Shown one piece after another: positions 38,604 through 59,820 of a stretch of 64,000 nt of DNA. The stretch's first letter is position 1. The number at the start of each line of letters is the position of its first letter. The notes under the pieces were generated by a model. The model did no database searches. It saw only the letters and a program-made list of their open reading frames with translations, and had not been told where the DNA came from. The stretch covers positions 496,001 through 560,000 of the forward strand of contig FNSS01000001.1 in the NCBI GenBank assembly GCA_900104855.1. Reading direction: 5' to 3'. Source of the stretch: Rhizobiales bacterium GAS188 (GTDB lineage: Bacteria > Pseudomonadota > Alphaproteobacteria > Rhizobiales > Beijerinckiaceae). A program made the position numbers and the translations under genes.

Positions 38604-39155
38604 ATGGACCAAACGACCTTGCCCTATCGGCGATGCGTCGGCATCGCCCTGTTCAACCGGGCGGGTCGCGTATTCGTGGCCAGGCGCCACGGGGACGCAG
38701 GTCCGGAGCATGTGCGCGGCCCCTATCGCTGGCAGATGCCGCAAGGCGGGATCGATCCGGGCGAAGAGCCGCTCGCGGCCGCGGTGCGCGAGATGTACGA
38801 GGAAACCAATGTGCGCAGCGCGACGCTGATCGCGGAGGCGCCGGAATGGTTCACCTACGACTTGCCGCGCGAGATGCTGCAGCGCTCCTGGCGCGGCGGC
38901 TATCGCGGCCAGACGCAGCGCTGGTTCGCCTTCCGCTTCACCGGCGAGGACAGCGAGATCAATGTGAAGCGGCCCGGCGGCGGCACTCACGCCGCCGAAT
39001 TCGACGAATGGCGCTGGGAGGATTTCTCGCTGACGCCGGAATTGATCATCCCCTTCAAGCGTCCCGTCTACGAAAAGGTGGTCGAGGCTTTCGCCCGCAT
39101 CGCGACCGTTCCCGAGGTGGAGGCGGCGCCCGTTAGCGCACCAGGATCGCCCTGA
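38604..39155 (+). CDS. rppH: RNA pyrophosphohydrolase (Nudix)
   Basis: A 183-residue Nudix hydrolase removing pyrophosphate from 5'-triphosphorylated RNA, which starts mRNA decay. The N-terminus ([19 protein letters not shown]), WQMPQGGID and the Nudix box from [20 protein letters not shown] are complete, and [21 protein letters not shown] are RppH-specific. The ATG at 38604 fits the family. Its last 23 bases overlap the 3' end of the convergent racemase-kinase gene. Confidence 0.93.
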
Positions 39156-41565
39156 AATCATTGACATTGGTGAGCGTCGGGCCGGTGACCACGAGCCGGT
39201 CGAGCGCGGCGAAGAACGAATAGGCGTCGTGGCGGGCGAGATAGGCCGCCGCGTCGATGCCCTTCTCTCCGGCTTGCGCCAGCACGCCTGAATCGATCCA
39301 GGCGCCGGCATTATCCTCCGTGCCGTCAATGCCATCGGTGTCGCCGGCAATCGCCGACACCCGGGTGAGCCCGCCGAGCCTGACGGCGAGCGCCAGCAGG
39401 AATTCCGCATTGCGCCCGCCGCGCCCGCCCCGCCCGGTCACGGTGACGGTCGTCTCGCCGCCGGAGAGCAAGACGCAAGGGCGCCGCGCCGGCTCGCCAT
39501 GGCGCGCCACGCTTTCCGCGATGCCGGCGAGCACGGTCGCGACCTCGCGCGCCTCCCCTTCGAGGGCGTCGCCAAGGATCAGAGGGGCGATGCCCATGTG
39601 GCGCGCCGTCGCGGCGGCCGCGTCAAGCGCCATTTTCGGCGTGGCGAGCATATGCAGCTCATGGCCCGGGAAGGTCTGGTTGGGTGCGGAATTCGCCAGC
39701 ATCGCCGCTTCGATCTCGGGCGCAACCTCGATCGCGTAACGCTTCAGGATGGCGAGCGCGGCCTTGGGATCGGCGCCGCCAGGCACGGTCGGGCCTGAGC
39801 CGATGATCGCCGGATCGTCTCCCGGCACATCGGAGATCAGATAGGTGACGCAACGCGCTCGCTTGGCCGCGGCCGCGAGGCGCCCGCCCTTGATGGCGGA
39901 GAGCGCCTTGCGCACCGTGTTCATCTCGCCGATCGGAGCGCCCGAGCGCAGCAGCGCCCGGTTCAGCGCCTGCTTCGCCTCGAGGGTGATGCCGGGCGCC
40001 GGCAAGGTCAGCAGGGCCGAGGCGCCGCCCGACATCAGGCAGATGACCAGATCGTCCGGGCCGGCCGATGCCGCGAGCGCCAGGATGCGCGCCGCGGCCT
40101 TCGCGCCCGCTTCGTCCGGGACGGGATGGGCCGCTTCCACCACCTCGATGCGGCGCGTCTTCGCCCCGTGACCGTAGCGCGTCACCACGAGGCCCTCGCA
40201 TTCACTCCCCCCTTTCGTCCCCTTCCCCCCTTTCGTCCCCGTCCCCCCTTCTCTTGCCTTCCCCCAGACGGCCTCGAATTCGCGTGCCATGCTGGCGGCC
40301 GCCTTGCCGGCGCCGATCACGATGGTGCGGCCTTTGGGGCGGGCAGGCAGGCGCCCGGTGAACTGCCCCTCCGGCCGCGCGGCCGCGAGCGCCGCCTCGA
40401 ACAGGGCAAGCAGGATCGCCTTGTCGCTCGCCTCCGCCTGCACGGAGCCTGAGGCTCGTTCGCCTGCTTGCGAAGCAGCGAGCGTCGGTGCCTTGCGGGG
40501 CGCCTGCCTGTCGGCGCGGAAGGCCTGGACCACCGGCACCGGCAAGGCCGGGATCTCGGCGCCCGCCTCATTCTCGAGCCGGTGCGCCAGGAGGCCGCGT
40601 GCCGCGACATGCGGATCAGCGATCGTTTCGCGCAGCTCCTGCAGCAGGCTGCAGCAGCAATCGACCTTGGCGAAGACCTCCCGCCAATGGCCGGAAGGAT
40701 GCGCCGCGACGAGCTGGCGCACGCGGCGGAGCGTGCCTTGCGGATCGCGCCGGTCGTCGCGCCATTCAGCTTCGAGGCCGATCGCCCCGCAGAACGCCTC
40801 CCAGAATTGCGGCTCCAGGGCGCCGACCGCCAGCATCTTTCCATCGGCCGTGGCGTAAAGCTGGTAGCGCGGGCTGCCGCCCATCAGCAGGCCTTCGCCA
40901 TTCGCGGGCCAGCGATCGGCCGCGAAGCCGGAGGCGAGCGCCAACGGCATGAAGGGGAAGACATTATCCGTCATGGCGATATCGAGATGGCAGCCGCGTC
41001 CCGTCGCCTCGCGGGCGCGCAGCCCCATGAGGATGTTCATCACTGCCGGATAGCTGCCGCCGCCGATATCGGCGATCAGGCCGGGCGGAACCACCGGCGC
41101 CTGCGGCGAGCCGAACGACAGGGACAATAGCCCCGCGTCGCCGATATAGTTGATGTCGTGGCCGGCCCGGTCGCGCTTGGGGCCGCTCTGCCCATAGCCG
41201 GTGATCGAGCAATAGACGAGGCGCGGATTGAGCGCCGCCACGGCGTCATATCCGAGCCCCAGCCTCTCCATGACGCCCGGGCGGAACTGCTCGACCAGCA
41301 CATCCGCCTGGCGCACCAGATCAAGGATGCGCGCCCGGTCGGCCTCGTTTTTCAAGTCGGCGACGAGGCTCTCCTTGCCGCGATTGAGAAGCGCGAACAT
41401 GGCGCCGTCCTGCCCCCAGCGCGGCGGGTAATGGCGCATATCCTCCCCGCCCGGCTTCTCGACCTTGATGATGCGGGCGCCGGCCTCGGCCAGGATCAGC
41501 GTCGCCAGCGGCCCCGGCAGCAAGGTCGAGAAATCGAGAACCGTGATCCCGGCGAGCGGCTGCAT
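39133..41565 (-). CDS. Fusion: alpha-methylacyl-CoA racemase-like domain plus glycerate 2-kinase domain
   Basis: An uninterrupted 810-residue frame with two complete enzyme families. Residues 1-360 are a class III CoA-transferase/AMACR protein ([20 protein letters not shown]) keeping His136 (AGHDINY), Asp166 (LIADIGGGS) and Glu251 (VGALEPQFW), the spacing of the mycobacterial racemase MCR as I recall it. Residues 380-810 are a MOFRL-type glycerate 2-kinase ([67 protein letters not shown]). A short linker joins them without a start site. The glycine/lysine repeat [13 protein letters not shown] lies in the kinase half. No common pathway is known to me. Confidence 0.85.
40207..40250. repeat. 18-bp C-rich tandem repeat in the fusion gene
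   Basis: Two full 18-bp units of the form CCCCCCTTTCGTCCCCTT (40207-40224 and 40225-40242) are followed by a partial third. On the coding (minus) strand they encode glycine, lysine and threonine repeats in the kinase domain. Unit length preserves the frame. Confidence 0.8.
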
Positions 41566-41650
41566 CCTATCGTCCTCCGGTCAGGCCGCATGGCGGGCCG
41601 CTGTCGGCGCGCCGGCACGAGCGTACAAGCCTTGCCTCAAGCGGCTACCA

Positions 41651-41885: not shown

Positions 41886-42671
41886 CTACCCGGCGTCCGC
41901 CATGTCCCCGATGGTGATCGTCACACGGTGAGAGGCGAAGCATCCGACATAGTAGGAGATGACGTCGCCGGTCGCGACCTCGATGTCGGTCGCCATGTAG
42001 GCGAGCACCGGTTGCACCCGCGGCTGGCAGAGGAGCCTTGCCTCTTCGGGGCTCGGCAGGCGTGCGGTGATCTCCGTCGATGCGCGACGATAGTCCACGA
42101 CCCCGAACTCCTGCAGGGCCCGTGTGATCGAGCCCTTGCGCTCGAACGCCTCCGCCAGGCCACGAAAGCGCTTTGCCGCGCAATGGCGCACCCCGAGCGA
42201 GATCGGCAGTTCGTCCGCATAGGCAGCCATCTGCAATTCCAGGACCGGTTCACCCGGCACAATGCCGAGGTGATGAGCGACGTCGCGGCCTGCCTTGGCT
42301 TCCCGAGTGCCGAGGACGCGACGATGCACCTTCTCGACCTCGCCGACGACGACGAGATTCTGGTTGAAGCGGACCCGATTGCCGCCGAGGCGATAATGGA
42401 CCAGCGCTTCGTCGCTGACGAAAGTGCCGTTGCCGTGCTCGATCCGCAAAAGCCCGTCCTGCTCCAGCGCCGCGAGCGCGCGTCGCGCCGTGACCCGGCT
42501 CGCCCCATAGTCGGACGCGATCTGCCTGTCCGGCGGAAGCTTCGAGCCGGGCGCATGGCGCCCCTCGACGATCGCGCTGCGCAGCGACTGCTCGATGCGC
42601 CGCCACAGCGGATCGATGCCGCCTGCGCTCTGCGGCGCGAGCTGGTGGTCGTGTTGGCGCTTCATCTTCAT
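41886..42671 (-). CDS. phnF: GntR/HutC-family regulator PhnF
   Basis: A 261-residue regulator. The winged helix spans about residues 20-85 (RSAIVEGRHAPGSKLPPDRQ, SRVTARRALAALEQDGLLRI, GNGTFVS), and the UTRA ligand domain follows (VLGTREAKAGRDVAHHLGI to the C-terminus). It is divergent from phnG and should repress the C-P lyase operon. The start is uncertain: ATG at 42671 (preceded by GAGG) is preferred over 42698 and 42776, which overlap the operator region more. Confidence 0.9.
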   Translation of the reverse strand: MKMKRQHDHQLAPQSAGGIDPLWRRIEQSLRSAIVEGRHAPGSKLPPDRQIASDYGASRVTARRALAALEQDGLLRIEHGNGTFVSDEALVHYRLGGNRVRFNQNLVVVGEVEKVHRRVLGTREAKAGRDVAHHLGIVPGEPVLELQMAAYADELPISLGVRHCAAKRFRGLAEAFERKGSITRALQEFGVVDYRRASTEITARLPSPEEARLLCQPRVQPVLAYMATDIEVATGDVISYYVGCFASHRVTITIGDMADAG

Positions 42672-42711
42672 TCCATCGGCCTCGGCGCATGATGACATTT
42701 TTTCGGGAAAG

Positions 42712-42723
42712 AGGTCTAGACCT
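42712..42723. promoter_or_regulatory. Second palindrome upstream of phnF
   Basis: AGGTCTAGACCT is a perfect 12-bp palindrome sharing the half-site GGT-CTAGACC with the adjacent PhnF-type operator. It lies closer to phnF and may be a second, autoregulatory site. Confidence 0.5.
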
Positions 42724-42733
42724 TTCCAGAACC

Positions 42734-42753
42734 GCAGTGGTATAGACCACTGC
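42734..42753. promoter_or_regulatory. PhnF operator
   Basis: GCAGTGGTATAGACCACTGC is a 20-bp dyad with 8-bp perfect arms around ATAG. Its core TGGTATAGACCA (42738-42749) equals, from memory, the site bound by PhnF in Mycobacterium smegmatis. It lies between divergent phnF and phnG. Confidence 0.8.
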
Positions 42754-42922
42754 GCGGCCGGCAGGCCGCAGCACACGGACCAAAGACTCGTCGGCTATGG
42801 GCGACGGCTCTGTGGCCGGCACCCTGACTTCGAACGAACCTATCAGCCGGCCGTCATCGCTCTGTTGCATGACGGCGCTACCGAGCCACTTTACCGCACG
42901 AGTCTTCATGCCAACCCCATCG

Positions 42923-43420
42923 ATGCCCGAGGTTTCCCGCGCTCAAAATCCCGCGGATCTGAAGCGACCAGGCTCCGAGCGGTTTCGGCGAATGACGATG
43001 TCGATCCTGGTCGAAGCGACGGCGGCGGAGCTCGCGGAGGCCGAAGGCGCCATCGGGCCCTTGCCCGGCTTTCGCCATCTGCGCAGCCCCGAAGCCGGCC
43101 TCGTCATGTTGCGCGGCCGGGTCGGCGGCGCGGGCGCGAGCTTCAATATCGGCGAAGCGACAGTGACGCGCTGCCTCGTCGTTACCGAAGCCGGCACCGA
43201 AGGCGCCGCCTATCATCTGGGCAGGGACCTGGCGAGAGCCGAAAAGGCCGCCCTGTTCGAAGCGCTGTCGCGCGACGCCGACTGGCGCGACAAGGTCGAG
43301 GCGGCTCTCCTCGCTCCGGTGCGCGAGCGCCTCGCCGGCGAGCGCGAGGCCGCGGCCGCAAAGACGGCCGGCACCCGGGTCGAGTTCTTCACCATGGTGC
43401 GCGGGGAGGATCAGCGATGA
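42923..43420 (+). CDS. phnG: C-P lyase core subunit PhnG
   Basis: A 165-residue subunit of the PhnGHIJ core, which with PhnI and PhnH transfers methylphosphonate onto ribose. The conserved part begins about residue 24 (MTMSILVEATAAELAEAE), continuing LRSPEAGLVMLRGRVGGAGASF, NIGEATVTRCLV and YHLGRDLARAEKAALFEAL. No good ribosome-binding site marks a start; 42923 gives near-typical length, 42992 would be slightly short and 42797 too long. It overlaps phnH by ATGA. Confidence 0.85.
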   Translation: MPEVSRAQNPADLKRPGSERFRRMTMSILVEATAAELAEAEGAIGPLPGFRHLRSPEAGLVMLRGRVGGAGASFNIGEATVTRCLVVTEAGTEGAAYHLGRDLARAEKAALFEALSRDADWRDKVEAALLAPVRERLAGEREAAAAKTAGTRVEFFTMVRGEDQR

Positions 43421-44022
43421 CGATCGCGACGGAGCTGCCGCGCTTCTCAGGCTTTGCGGAACGGGTCTTCGATGCCCAGACCTCCTTCCGGGCCATCATG
43501 GACGGGCTCGCCAATCCGGGCCGGATCGAGCTGATTTCGGTCGCGCCGGACGCGCCTGCGGGCCTCGCGCCGGCGCTCGCCTGCGCCGCACTGGCGCTCA
43601 TCGATCACGACACGCCGGTCTTTCTCGATCGCGTCTTCGCCAAGGATCGCGAGATCGCAGCCTATCTCGGTTTCCACACCGGCTGCCGCTTCGTCGAGGA
43701 TCCCTCGCTCGCCGCATTCGCGCTGATCGGCGATCCGGCGCATTGCCCTGACCTCAAGAGCTTCGCCCAAGGCACGCTCGAATATCCGGATCGCTCGACG
43801 ACGTTGATCCTGCAGGTCGCGAGCCTCGAGGAAAAGGGCGGGCTTTGCCTCTCCGGCCCCGGCATCAAGGATAATCGCAGCCTTGGCGTCGCGCCCTTGC
43901 CGGCGGGTTTCGCCGACCAGCTGCGCGCCAATCGCGAGCGCTTCCCGCAAGGTGTCGACCTCCTGTTCTGCGAGCGCGATCGCCTTGTCGGGCTGTCGCG
44001 CTCGACACGGATCGAAGGATAG
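43417..44022 (+). CDS. phnH: C-P lyase core subunit PhnH
   Basis: A 201-residue PhnH with the family start FAERVFDAQTSFRAIMDGLANPGRI, the middle LALIDHDTPVFL and the end DLLFCERDRLVGLSRSTRI. PhnH is required for coupling phosphonate to ATP ribose together with PhnG, PhnI and PhnL. The start overlaps the phnG stop; phnI starts 8 bases after its end. Confidence 0.93.
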   Translation: MTIATELPRFSGFAERVFDAQTSFRAIMDGLANPGRIELISVAPDAPAGLAPALACAALALIDHDTPVFLDRVFAKDREIAAYLGFHTGCRFVEDPSLAAFALIGDPAHCPDLKSFAQGTLEYPDRSTTLILQVASLEEKGGLCLSGPGIKDNRSLGVAPLPAGFADQLRANRERFPQGVDLLFCERDRLVGLSRSTRIEG

Positions 44023-44030
44023 GCATCGCC

Positions 44031-45197
44031 ATGTATGTCGCAGTCAAAGGCGGTGAGAAGGCAATCGAGGCGGCCCATGAGCTGCTGGCTCAGGCACGCA
44101 GGGGCGACCCCGCTATTGCCGAGATCGAGCTGACGCAGATCAGCGAGCAGCTGGCGCTCGCCGTGGCGCGCGTCATGAGCGAGGCCTCGCTCTACGACAC
44201 CGAGCTCGCCGCGCTCGCCATCAAGCAAGCACGCGGCGACCTGATCGAAGCGATCTTCCTGGCACGGGCTTATCGCACCACCCTGCCCCGCTTCGGCGAG
44301 AGCCTGCCGCTCGAGACGGCCCGGATGACCATCGAGCGTCGGATCTCGGCCTGCTTCAAGGACATGCCGGGCGGCCAGGTGCTCGGCCCCACTTTCGACT
44401 ATACGCACCGCCTGCTCGGCGAGATGGGCAAGGCCGAAGAGCTCTCCAAAAAGCCGGGCGATAAGGCGGTCGCGACATCCGCTGCCGCACCGGCAGAACC
44501 CCCGCAACCCGCCAGCTATCCGCGCGTCGCCGACCTGCTCGGCGCGCAGGCGCTGATCGAGCCGGATCCGCCCCCGTCATCCGCGCCGCCAGGCGATATC
44601 ACGCGCGAGCCGCTCGAATTCCCGGCCGGGCGCGATCTGCGGCTGCAGGCGCTGGCGCGCGGCGATGAAGGCTTCCTGCTCGGATTGGCCTATTCGACCC
44701 AGCGCGGTTTCGGCCGCACCCATCCCTTCGCCGGCGAGATCCGCTTCGGCACAGTCGAGGTCGAGTTCGACGCGCCCGAGCTCGGCTTCGCAGTGCCGCT
44801 GGGTCGGGTCGAGGTGACCGAATGCGACATGGTCAACCAGTTCCGCGGCACGGCCGACACCCCGCCGCAATTCACGCGCGGCTACGGCCTCGTCTTCGGC
44901 CAGTCGGAGCGCAAGGCGATGTCGATGGCCCTCGTCGACCGGGCGCTGAGGGCGCGCGAATTCGGCGAGGAGGCGACGGCGCCGGCCCAGGACGAGGAGT
45001 TCGTGCTGTCGCATGCCGACAACGTCCAGGCGACCGGCTTCGTCGAACATCTCAAGCTGCCCCATTACGTCGATTTCCAGGCCGAGCTGGTGCTGCTGCG
45101 CCAATTGCGGCGCGAATGGGAGGAGCGCCACGCCGAGTCAGACAAGAAGGACTCCAATGAGGCCTCGGTGAGCGCGCAGCGGAAGGCCGCCGAATGA
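44031..45197 (+). CDS. phnI: C-P lyase core subunit PhnI
   Basis: A 388-residue PhnI, the nucleosidase-like subunit that exchanges the adenine of ATP for phosphonate. It begins MYVAVKGGEKAIEAAHELLA and contains EASLYDTELAALAIKQARGDLIEAIFLARAYRTTLPR and, near the end, VLSHADNVQATGFVEHLKLPHYVDFQAELVLLRQLR. An Ala/Pro-rich stretch (about 145-185) and a charged tail after residue 370 look like lineage insertions. It overlaps phnJ by ATGA. Confidence 0.95.
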   Translation: MYVAVKGGEKAIEAAHELLAQARRGDPAIAEIELTQISEQLALAVARVMSEASLYDTELAALAIKQARGDLIEAIFLARAYRTTLPRFGESLPLETARMTIERRISACFKDMPGGQVLGPTFDYTHRLLGEMGKAEELSKKPGDKAVATSAAAPAEPPQPASYPRVADLLGAQALIEPDPPPSSAPPGDITREPLEFPAGRDLRLQALARGDEGFLLGLAYSTQRGFGRTHPFAGEIRFGTVEVEFDAPELGFAVPLGRVEVTECDMVNQFRGTADTPPQFTRGYGLVFGQSERKAMSMALVDRALRAREFGEEATAPAQDEEFVLSHADNVQATGFVEHLKLPHYVDFQAELVLLRQLRREWEERHAESDKKDSNEASVSAQRKAAE

Positions 45198-46096
45198 GCA
45201 CGCCCACTTACAATTTCGCCTATCTCGATGAGCAGACGAAGCGGATGATCCGCCGCGCCATCCTCAAGGCCATCGCCATTCCGGGCTACCAGGTGCCCTT
45301 CGCCAGCCGCGAAATGCCCATGCCTTATGGCTGGGGTACAGGCGGCGTGCAGGTAACGGCGTCGATCATCGGGCCGAAAGATGTGCTCAAGGTCATCGAC
45401 CAGGGCTCGGACGACACCACCAATGCCGTGTCGATCCGCGCCTTCTTCGCCAAGGTGGCGCGGGTCGCGGTCACGACCCGCACCAGCGAGGCGAGCATCA
45501 TCCAGACCCGCCATCGCATCCCGGAGACCGAGCTCGAAGCCGGGCAGATCATCGTCTTCCAGGTACCGATCCCCGAGCCTTTGCGCTTCCTCGAACCGCG
45601 AGAGACAGAGACCCGGCTGATGCATGCGCTCGAGGATTACGGCCCGATGCATGTGAAGCTTTATGAGGATATCGCGCGCCACGGCCATATCGCCACCACC
45701 TATGCGTATCCGGTGCGCGTGGCGGGGCGCTATCTGATGGACCCTTCGCCGACGCCGAAATTCGACAATCCGAAGATGCAGATGTCCGAGGCGCTGCAGC
45801 TATTCGGGGCCGGGCGCGAGAAGCGCATCTATGCGATCCCGCCCCATACCGAGGTGGTCTCGCTCGATTTCGAGGACCATCCCTTCGAGGTGCAGCGCTT
45901 CGAGCGTCCTTGCGCGCTGTGCGGCGCCGAAGGCGTCTATCTCGACGAGGTGATCACCGATGATCGCGGCGGGCGCCTGTTCGTCTGCTCCGACACCGAT
46001 CACTGCGAGAGCCGGCGCGCCGCCGGCCATGTGGGGACCGAGGGCGTTGCTGAGGCTGCGCCGACCCTGATGGAGGCACCCCATGGAGGCGAGTGA
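45194..46096 (+). CDS. phnJ: C-P lyase catalytic radical SAM enzyme PhnJ
   Basis: A 300-residue enzyme that cleaves the C-P bond of ribosyl-1-alkylphosphonate 5-phosphate using S-adenosylmethionine. The four conserved cysteines are Cys240, Cys243, Cys265 and Cys271 (RPCALCGAEG and FVCSDTDHCESR), giving the expected CX2CX21CX5C spacing; three ligate the 4Fe-4S cluster and one is the thiyl-radical residue. The start MSTPTYNFAYLDEQTKRMIRR is typical. phnK starts 14 bases before its end. Confidence 0.97.
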   Translation: MSTPTYNFAYLDEQTKRMIRRAILKAIAIPGYQVPFASREMPMPYGWGTGGVQVTASIIGPKDVLKVIDQGSDDTTNAVSIRAFFAKVARVAVTTRTSEASIIQTRHRIPETELEAGQIIVFQVPIPEPLRFLEPRETETRLMHALEDYGPMHVKLYEDIARHGHIATTYAYPVRVAGRYLMDPSPTPKFDNPKMQMSEALQLFGAGREKRIYAIPPHTEVVSLDFEDHPFEVQRFERPCALCGAEGVYLDEVITDDRGGRLFVCSDTDHCESRRAAGHVGTEGVAEAAPTLMEAPHGGE

Positions 46097-46862
46097 GGCT
46101 CCCCTTCTTGTCGCCGAGGGCGTCACGAAATATTACGGCGAGCGGCTCGGCTGCCGCGACGTGTCCTTCGAGATCCATCCGGGCGAGGTGATCGCCGTGG
46201 TGGGCGAATCGGGTTCGGGCAAGTCCACCTTGCTCGCTCTGTTGTCGCAGCGCCTGGATCTCACGAGCGGGCGCGTCTCCTATCGCCAGAACGGCCATCT
46301 CACCGATCTCGGGGAGCTGACCGAGGCGGAGCGCCGCCGTCTGCAGCGCACCGATTGGGGCTTCGTGCACCAGGATCCGCGCGAGGGGCTGCGCATGAAT
46401 GTCTCGGCCGGCGCCAATGTCGGCGAGCGCCTGATGGCGACCGGGTGGCGCCATTACGGACGCATCCGCGACACGGCGAGCGACTGGCTGTCGCGCGTCG
46501 AGATCGACATCGACCGCATCGACGATGCGCCGAAGAGCTTTTCGGGCGGCATGCGCCAGCGGCTGCAGATCGCCAAGAACCTCGTCACCCATCCGCGCCT
46601 CGTCTTCATGGACGAGCCGACGGGCGGGCTCGACGTGTCGGTGCAGGCAAGGCTCCTCGACCTCATCCGGGCACTCGTCGCCGATCTTGGCCTTGCGGCC
46701 GTCATCGTGACCCATGATCTCGCCGTGGCGCGCCTGCTCTCGCACCGCATCCTCGTCATGAAGGACGGCGAGGTGATCGAGACCGGGCTGACCGACCGGG
46801 TGCTCGACGATCCGGCGCAGGCCTATACTCAGCTCCTCGTGTCGTCGGTGCTCGACGCATGA
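46083..46862 (+). CDS. phnK: C-P lyase complex ATPase PhnK
   Basis: A 259-residue ABC-type ATPase that docks on the PhnGHIJ core rather than on a permease. It has Walker A GESGSGKSTLLALLS, the Q-loop region WGFVHQDPREGLRM, signature FSGGMRQRLQIAKNLV, Walker B LVFMDEPTGGLD and VTHDLAVARLL. The ATG at 46083 lies inside the end of phnJ. Confidence 0.94.
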   Translation: MEASEAPLLVAEGVTKYYGERLGCRDVSFEIHPGEVIAVVGESGSGKSTLLALLSQRLDLTSGRVSYRQNGHLTDLGELTEAERRRLQRTDWGFVHQDPREGLRMNVSAGANVGERLMATGWRHYGRIRDTASDWLSRVEIDIDRIDDAPKSFSGGMRQRLQIAKNLVTHPRLVFMDEPTGGLDVSVQARLLDLIRALVADLGLAAVIVTHDLAVARLLSHRILVMKDGEVIETGLTDRVLDDPAQAYTQLLVSSVLDA

Positions 46863-47611
46863 GCCCGCAAGCCCCTTTGATCGAAGTCGAAGCCCTGGGG
46901 AAGAGCTTCACCTTGCATCTGCGCGGTGGACTCGTCCTGCCGGTCGTCGCCGGCGTGAGCTTCGCGGTGCGGAAAGGCGAGTGCGTGGCGCTCGGAGGCC
47001 CCTCCGGCATCGGCAAGTCGTCGATCCTGAAGGCGGTGTTCGGCAATTATGCTGCCGACCAGGGCTGCATCTGGATCCGCGACGGCGACAGGCGCGTCGA
47101 TCTCGCGGTGGCCGAGCCGCGCCAGGTGATCGCGCTGCGCCGCCGCGTCATCGGCTATGTCAGCCAGTTCCTGCGCGTCATTCCGCGCGTCTCGGCGCGC
47201 GACGTGGTGGCGGCGGCGGCCCGCGAAGGCGGCGCCGACGAGAACGAGGCGCAGCGGACGGCCGAAGGATTGCTGCGGCGCCTCAACTTGCCGGAGCGGC
47301 TCTGGTCGCTGCCCCCCTCGACCTTCTCGGGCGGCGAGCAGCAGCGCGTCAACATCGCGCGCGGCCTCGCCGGGCGTCACGCCATCCTGCTCCTCGACGA
47401 GCCGACCGCCTCGCTCGACGCGCAAAACAGCGCCGCCGTCGTCGCCTTGATCCAGGAGCGCAAGCGCGCCGGCGCCGCGATCCTCGGCATCTTCCATGAT
47501 GCGCCGGTGCGCGAAGCGCTCGCCGACCGCATCGTCGACATCAGCGCCTTCGCGATCGGAGGCCAAGGCAAGGAGGATGCCACCGAGGCTACCGCCGAGG
47601 TCGCCGCATGA
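46859..47611 (+). CDS. phnL: C-P lyase ATPase-like protein PhnL
   Basis: A 250-residue ABC ATPase homologue needed for transfer of phosphonate to ribose. It has Walker A GGPSGIGKSSILKAVFG, signature FSGGEQQRVNIARGLA, Walker B ILLLDEPTASLD and the PhnL-typical IGYVSQFLRVIPRVSA. It overlaps phnK and phnN by ATGA at both ends. Confidence 0.94.
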   Translation: MSPQAPLIEVEALGKSFTLHLRGGLVLPVVAGVSFAVRKGECVALGGPSGIGKSSILKAVFGNYAADQGCIWIRDGDRRVDLAVAEPRQVIALRRRVIGYVSQFLRVIPRVSARDVVAAAAREGGADENEAQRTAEGLLRRLNLPERLWSLPPSTFSGGEQQRVNIARGLAGRHAILLLDEPTASLDAQNSAAVVALIQERKRAGAAILGIFHDAPVREALADRIVDISAFAIGGQGKEDATEATAEVAA

Positions 47612-59131: not shown

Positions 59132-59820
59132 ATAACCCGACTCAGCCGACGAGACGCTTGATGAGCTTGCGAAGCACCTGCGGGACGCTCTCCCTCAGCC
59201 GATGGCGGGCCGAACGATCTGGCAGACGCCTAGCATATTGCCCGGGCGGCGTGTGAATGGGATCGCTTCCGGAATGGCTAGGCCATTCTTTGCGCATGGA
59301 AGGCAACTACAGCGCCCCGACTCCAACGGCTGCTATGGGTCGACTCCTGCCGCTCAAGGGCAGGCTCGAATGTCGCCACAGGGTGTTGTGTCACGAGCAT
59401 CGCCGGTCCACACGGGGATGCGCAACTGTACGAGAGATGAAGGAGGGCCCTTCGAGGTCGGCAATCAGGTGTTGATCTCAAGCCACCGCAAGCTGCTGTT
59501 CTCAAAAGCGATGGTGCTGATCGCTCGATTTCGGACGCCGCCGGCGTTCGCATGAGAGACGCGGAACAGCCGTGGGAGGGGCCGGCGGGCGACGTGCGTC
59601 ATGAGACCGGCGCTGTTGCAGTTTTTCGTGGCTCGGGAGCCGCCGGGACTGGCCGTCTGCATATTTACCGACCGCCTGCAGCCCATTCGCCGTCCCAAGC
59701 GGGCATACCGATTGCCGATCCGCCCGGAATTCGTGATCCTCAGACCTTTCCGGGTCGGCCATCCGGGGGATCTCGGCCGTATATCTCGCCAACAAGCCAT
59801 CGCTGCGTCAGAGTCAGTCC
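59132..59820. other. Gene-poor region before the TauE-like gene
   Basis: These 689 bases contain the second direct repeat (59337-59385) and several short open frames on both strands, none with a recognisable motif. The promoter of the TauE-like gene should lie near its right end, but no clear hexamers were found. Confidence 0.5.
59337..59385 (+). repeat. Direct repeat, copy 2
   Basis: This 49-bp segment matches the repeat at 58464-58516: GGGTCGACTCC at the left and GCTCGAATGTCGCCACAG at the right are shared exactly. It lies in non-coding DNA about 200 bases after the DUF1330 gene. Confidence 0.7.

Follow-up and report, generated by a model that had tools for sequence, protein, structure and literature searches.

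A stretch of DNA of 64,000 nucleotides (the window) carries a gene for a conserved two-enzyme protein whose component families were not found fused elsewhere in the searches made here. The gene raises a question for which it offers a clean case, namely whether a genus-limited domain fusion reports a metabolic link between its parts or only a lucky tether. It may also call for caution in annotation, since such a gene may be named for one of its halves, and the other half would then look missing.

A single frame joins two enzyme families

The gene lies at positions 39133..41565 of the window, on the minus strand, and consists of 810 codons plus a stop. The ORF reading showed an ATG start and no internal stop, confirming the uninterrupted 810-residue frame described by a sequence-only reading of this DNA. 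A Shine-Dalgarno-like GGAGG (41574..41578, minus strand) is present in the upstream sequence, 8 nt before the ATG. Residues 4-362 (40480..41556, minus strand) match the Pfam family CoA_transf_3 (PF02515) with 309.5 bits and, judging from solved-structure matches, correspond to an AMACR-type domain. The variable linker core, residues 363-384 (40414..40479, minus strand), lies in a region that is poorly conserved from approximately residue 346 and has pLDDT values below 50 at residues 297-375. The C-terminal half comprises DUF4147 (residues 385-621; 39703..40413, minus strand; 258.6 bits), which forms the N-terminal domain in class II glycerate kinases, and the MOFRL domain (residues 697-803; 39157..39477, minus strand; 125.4 bits), both of which exceed their gathering cut-offs (23 and 28.3 bits, respectively). 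By its domain content, the gene is a real fusion of an AMACR-type domain and a complete, putative class II (MOFRL) glycerate 2-kinase. Its 3' end overlaps by 23 bp a convergent NUDIX (RppH-like) gene (38604..39155, plus strand), which marks the conserved downstream synteny.

Distribution and origin of the fusion

The genus search covered four genomes: that of the window (G000), G001, G002 and G003. Full-length fusions were found in G002 (76% identical) and G003 (77%), and thus three of the four genomes carry the gene. A peptide-pattern scan of 84,980 species genomes yielded 54 loci, a single one of which (L031; JAFBAK010000283.1) matched residues 1-810. Since its fusion DNA is identical to that of G003, we consider it to be the same genome, and the independent genomes number three. 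That the frame could result from an error of sequencing or assembly, or from a read-through confined to this strain, is hardly credible, as two more assemblies contain it at full length with 76-77% identity, and one of these is additionally represented by the public contig above. The sequence-only reading had named a stop or frameshift near residues 360-385 and a fusion restricted to this strain as outcomes that would speak against it. The former, like a sequencing error at these residues, is untenable given the full-length fusions in G002 and G003, and the latter did not occur. Its alternative suggestion of a recent read-through of two adjacent genes is unlikely because of the divergence of the fused copies.

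No MOFRL match was obtained in G001, whose genome is 92% complete. The G001 contig that carries rppH stops 53 bp past the rppH stop codon, while ORF coordinates place the stop codon of the fusion 72 bp past that of rppH in G003 and 99 bp past it in G002. The contig thus ends nearer to rppH than the fusion stop would lie, and G001 cannot be taken to lack the gene at this locus.

Outside the genus, no match over residues 1-810 was found among the matches listed, from the best score downward, for a whole-protein query of 199 family and 397 order genomes. When 385 class and 398 phylum genomes were searched with the whole protein at E 1e-160, a threshold that a very diverged fusion could escape, the window's own genome was the only one matched; the family, order, class and phylum sets are overlapping samples. 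Among 72,556 plasmid records, 1,432 match the fusion protein, none of them over 80% of the query. Searches of 5.39 million open-access papers returned no report of such a fusion, in agreement with the sequence-only reading, which knew of no described example.

Trees were calculated from one best match per locus after short matches and contained duplicates had been dropped, leaving 52 of 69 rows for the N-terminal half and 84 of 108 for the C-terminal half. The three fusions form one clade (100/100) in both trees, with the same inner order in which G003 and G002 are sisters. The N-terminal half clusters with relatives from the same order, and the C-terminal half groups with kinases from Inquilinus, Kaistia and Microvirga and from several members of the family.

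We also searched 175 loci for matches to each half at E 1e-20; 77 of these loci span at least 9 kb, and 91 measure less than 5.5 kb and thus show near neighbours only. The two halves occur together exclusively in the fusion loci. The regions examined surround two fusions, 14 stand-alone kinases and 16 racemase relatives. Neither half was matched at E 1e-5 within approximately 8 kb downstream of rppH in nine genomes from other genera. An ancestral operon of the two halves was considered and rejected, co-occurrence among the 175 loci being confined to the fusions. The fusion looks natural, of single origin, limited to the genus and kept by selection in both halves.

The N-terminal half probably carries a racemase-type site

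The closest solved relatives of the N-terminal half are AMACR chains (best chains at E 4.8e-58 to 5e-58), among them MCR from M. tuberculosis (1x74; E 5e-58). The likeness extends from family membership by sequence to the GHDINY motif and to a triad at matching positions: His136 (41158..41160), Asp166 (41068..41070) and Glu251 (40813..40815), all on the minus strand, align with positions 126, 156 and 241 of the 1x74 chain. The intact triad of the sequence-only reading could thus be matched residue by residue to MCR His126, Asp156 and Glu241. Passages of PMC12246613 describe the His126/Glu241 dyad and Asp156 of MCR as postulated bases, an active site assembled from two subunits, and an interaction of Asn152 with Asp156. 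The N-terminal half should therefore need dimerization, as the triad of MCR comes from two subunits. It differs from AMACR/MCR in that the chain continues into a kinase and in that the position of Asn152, not known to be a required residue, is occupied by a glycine (Gly162) in the window fusion, and by Ala in G002 and G003. As a consequence of this replacement, its substrate or rate may differ from those of AMACR.

Each of the 27 rows with at least 54% identity, which comprise the three fusions and 24 further sequences, keeps the His/Asp/Glu triad, and it is also found in three more distant rows (L079, L081 and L002). The remaining 22 rows, genus paralogues in a separate distant clade that are presumably transferases, all lack both the His and the Glu. 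This pattern of conservation supports a racemase-type site. A second AMACR-like gene is present in the window's own genome (L002; G000:C1:812682-813728); it is 35% identical and keeps the His, Asp, Glu and Asn.

It is nevertheless worth considering that the N-terminal half could be a CoA transferase rather than a racemase, loading CoA onto an acid or unloading it. The fold is that of family III, and the only name that Pfam and NCBIfam give to this half is CoA-transferase family III. Their matches include no AMACR model, and the top NCBIfam matches are transferases. Every NCBIfam match to this half is below its cut-off, however, including all listed transferase models, the best two transferase equivalogs reaching 174.7 bits against a cut-off of 522 and 170 against 750. 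The replacement of the MCR Asn152 would be compatible with a transferase, and the Asp of the triad also serves as the transferase nucleophile. Against this stand the presence of His136 and Glu251 throughout the 27 closer rows and their absence from the 22 of the distant clade, as well as the best scores of AMACR chains among solved relatives. We thus regard a transferase as distinctly unlikely, and favour the racemase-type assignment. Structure prediction does not bear on this choice: 10-residue pLDDT means for the N-terminal half range from 23 to 78 and are mostly below 60, and the model is unusable because just three other aligned rows cover this half.

The surroundings of stand-alone relatives were examined in the 16 fetched regions. 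A 3-hydroxyacyl-CoA dehydrogenase-like gene is present in five of them (L157, L158, L159, L162 and L172), and the kinase of the fusion has no match in any, the 16.8 kb L162 region included. L162 encodes a stand-alone AMACR-like protein from a genome of the same order (G378) that is 57% identical to the N-terminal half and shares the triad; unlike the fusion, it is a separate 374-residue gene, located between 3HCDH-domain and zinc-dehydrogenase genes. A gene-by-gene scan identified as its neighbours a second family III CoA transferase, two enoyl-CoA hydratases (one near MenB/BadI), an acyl-CoA ligase, an acyl-CoA dehydrogenase, 3-hydroxyacyl-CoA dehydrogenase proteins and the zinc dehydrogenase. 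From these predicted products, the region is a beta-oxidation-like run. One scanned neighbour in L172 is an acyl-CoA dehydrogenase, and the sampled neighbours in L160 and L161 are unrelated. The nearest tree relative of the racemase half (support 92/85) is L170, a partial sequence cut by the end of a 3.8-kb contig that also holds another CoA transferase.

The C-terminal half resembles class II glycerate kinases

Residues 389-804 match T. maritima TM1585 (2b8n) with E 4.8e-69 and are also near P. horikoshii PH0495 (1x3l). Together with DUF4147 and MOFRL scores far over cut-off, this bears out the complete MOFRL glycerate kinase that had been read from the sequence. The class II motif given in passages of PMC2063504, D-X(0,2)-G-X(0,1)-D-[GP]-X(4)-[APS]-[ACDGST], is satisfied at residues 744-754 and kept among the fusions, and according to the same passages all class II kinases characterized up to that publication seem to make 2-phosphoglycerate. 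The two NCBIfam glycerate 2-kinase equivalogs scored below cut-off (NF041176, 228.8 versus 550; NF040791, 151.7 versus 670). In the predicted structure, pLDDT values of the kinase half are mostly above 85. Lys421, in this half, is an invariant position. What distinguishes this half from 2b8n and 1x3l, which it resembles in its two domains and its motif, is that it is joined to a CoA enzyme; no such joining was seen in the other genomes searched.

G000, G002 and G003 have no MOFRL gene besides the fusion, and a search for class I kinases (PF02595) was negative in all four genus genomes. No glycerate kinase of class I or II other than that of the fusion was thus found in the three genomes that carry it. 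Models for the canonical suppliers of glycerate, glyoxylate carboligase (Gcl) and tartronate semialdehyde reductase (TSR), also gave no match over cut-off in the four genomes (best scores 346 versus 711 bits and 226 versus 341 bits, respectively). The kinase half of G000 contains a Gly/Lys/Thr-rich insert at residues ~436-454 (window ~40204-40260) that is missing from G002 and G003, where a Ser/Asn-rich insert instead directly precedes the RGGRN motif.

Selection, linker and internal starts

Comparison of the three fusions, for which dS values are close to saturation, gave dN of 0.13-0.18 and dS of 0.90-1.13 for the N-terminal half (dN/dS about 0.15-0.18), and dN of 0.11-0.14 and dS of 1.02-1.39 for the C-terminal half (dN/dS about 0.08-0.13). 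These values suggest purifying selection on both halves. The linker showed dN of 0.55-0.89 and dS of 1.0-1.71; since its changes show no bias towards third codon positions, it seems to have no amino-acid constraint of its own. It is 38, 42 or 44 codons long in the three fusions, in frame and without a stop in all cases. Shuffling gave a chance of a stop-free linker of 0.53, 0.25 and 0.34 per genome, and a rough joint chance of 0.005 with frame agreement included; this value holds if the linkers are unconstrained and independent, and is optimistic, since the three genomes are related.

A linker of this kind leads to the question of whether the gene could yield two products, with the kinase made also, or only, from an internal start or through cleavage of the linker. 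The lack of linker conservation would agree with this, as would an in-frame ATG at codon 383 of G003, which follows a weak GAGAAG and lies near the position at which the stand-alone kinase of Inquilinus starts (MSASDRAVLEALF). G003 might thus make a separate kinase product. Alternative in-frame starts near the beginning of the kinase are GTG at codon 375 in G000, and in G002 GTG at codons 358 and 369 as well as TTG at 380. However, the three fusions share no internal start, whether by position or by codon, and the position of the G003 Met is occupied by Ala in G000 and Pro in G002. We therefore consider two products to be an unlikely reading, and expect that the gene would be translated as a single polypeptide.

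Proposed function

We think it probable that the gene encodes a natural bifunctional enzyme of single origin, limited to the genus, in which two independently working sites are carried on a flexible tether. At the rppH locus, a racemase-type gene and a glycerate kinase gene would have become one through a single fusion event within the genus. The N-terminal half is predicted to be an AMACR-type CoA-thioester 2-epimerase, in which the His136/Glu251 dyad on one face and Asp166 on the other would abstract the alpha proton and give it back. A flexible, fast-evolving linker of ~40 residues would carry the kinase half, a predicted class II D-glycerate 2-kinase that would convert D-glycerate and ATP to 2-phosphoglycerate. 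What the fusion adds would be joint expression and a common dimer, and not substrate channelling.

Gene neighbourhood and the case for a common pathway

The gene order downstream of the three fusions is the same: the rppH-like NUDIX gene, a divergent polysaccharide deacetylase, PagL and then cobalamin adenosyltransferase, followed by etfBA (two electron transfer flavoprotein subunits) and 3-hydroxyacyl-CoA dehydrogenase. The upstream side differs between G000 and G002/G003. In G000, a GntR/UTRA regulator (41886..42776, minus strand), which we take to be PhnF-like, is located upstream; it does not adjoin the fusion in G002 or G003. Beyond it (window ~41886-47611 and further) lies what is presumably a C-P lyase (phn)-type gene run, which is beside the fusion in G000 and not in G002 or G003. 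The promoter and terminator scan revealed one promoter-like site, on the strand opposite the fusion.

Upstream of the fusion in G002 and G003, and on its strand, are genes for a ThDP enzyme and an MFS transporter; in G003, two minus-strand oxidoreductase genes are located between the ThDP gene and the fusion. The ThDP enzyme shows a relationship to benzoylformate decarboxylase and a weaker one to 2-hydroxyacyl-CoA lyase. Its gene is present in all four genus genomes (L141:11211-12944, minus strand; G000:C1:571054-572784; G001:C448; G003:C169), the G002 protein being 80-87% identical to those of the other three. An MFS gene adjoins it in the three regions inspected (G000, G002 and G003), with transporters that are 71-85% identical. 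In G000 the ThDP gene, also beside its MFS gene, is ~33.5 kb from the fusion. Its proximity to the fusion may thus reflect locus history only, given that all four genomes carry it and that this distance separates the two in G000.

The sequence-only reading had proposed a pathway leading from a CoA thioester to a 2-phosphoglycerate-type product, and this proposal finds no support in the present data. In such a scheme both halves would serve one pathway, in which epimerization of a 2-hydroxyacyl- or glyceryl-CoA would be followed by release of the acid and by phosphorylation of D-glycerate to 2-phosphoglycerate. Conservation of both active sites across three diverged fusions would be in keeping with it, as would the upstream MFS transporter and ThDP enzyme genes of G002 and G003. 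Nevertheless, gene neighbours provide no support for a functional link of the halves among the 175 loci, where the two are never neighbours outside the fusion. The ThDP gene is distant from the fusion in G000, is split from it by the two minus-strand genes in G003, and is present in G001, where no MOFRL kinase was found. Racemase-relative regions are beta-oxidation-like (L162) or unrelated (L160, L161), and no step releasing glycerate from CoA was seen. A common pathway therefore seems quite improbable. A more specific form, which we regard as a long shot, would be an undescribed route of the genus in which the racemase half sets the stereochemistry of a 2-hydroxyacyl-CoA and the kinase traps released D-glycerate as 2-phosphoglycerate; as part of this conjecture, the ThDP lyase-family enzyme encoded beside the fusion in two genomes might make or cleave the hydroxyacyl-CoA (e.g. 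glyceryl-CoA). Two independent enzymes in one chain would be the simplest function, and it is most likely that the two sites work independently.

Two further features of this genome were recorded. The only Rfam match over gathering score in the window is a Group II intron domain (RF01999) at 59439-59551 on the plus strand, with 46 bits against a gathering score of 36. The G000 assembly comprises 9.09 Mb on three contigs and is thus nearly double the size of the genomes of G001, G002 and G003, which are drafts of 4.7-4.9 Mb.
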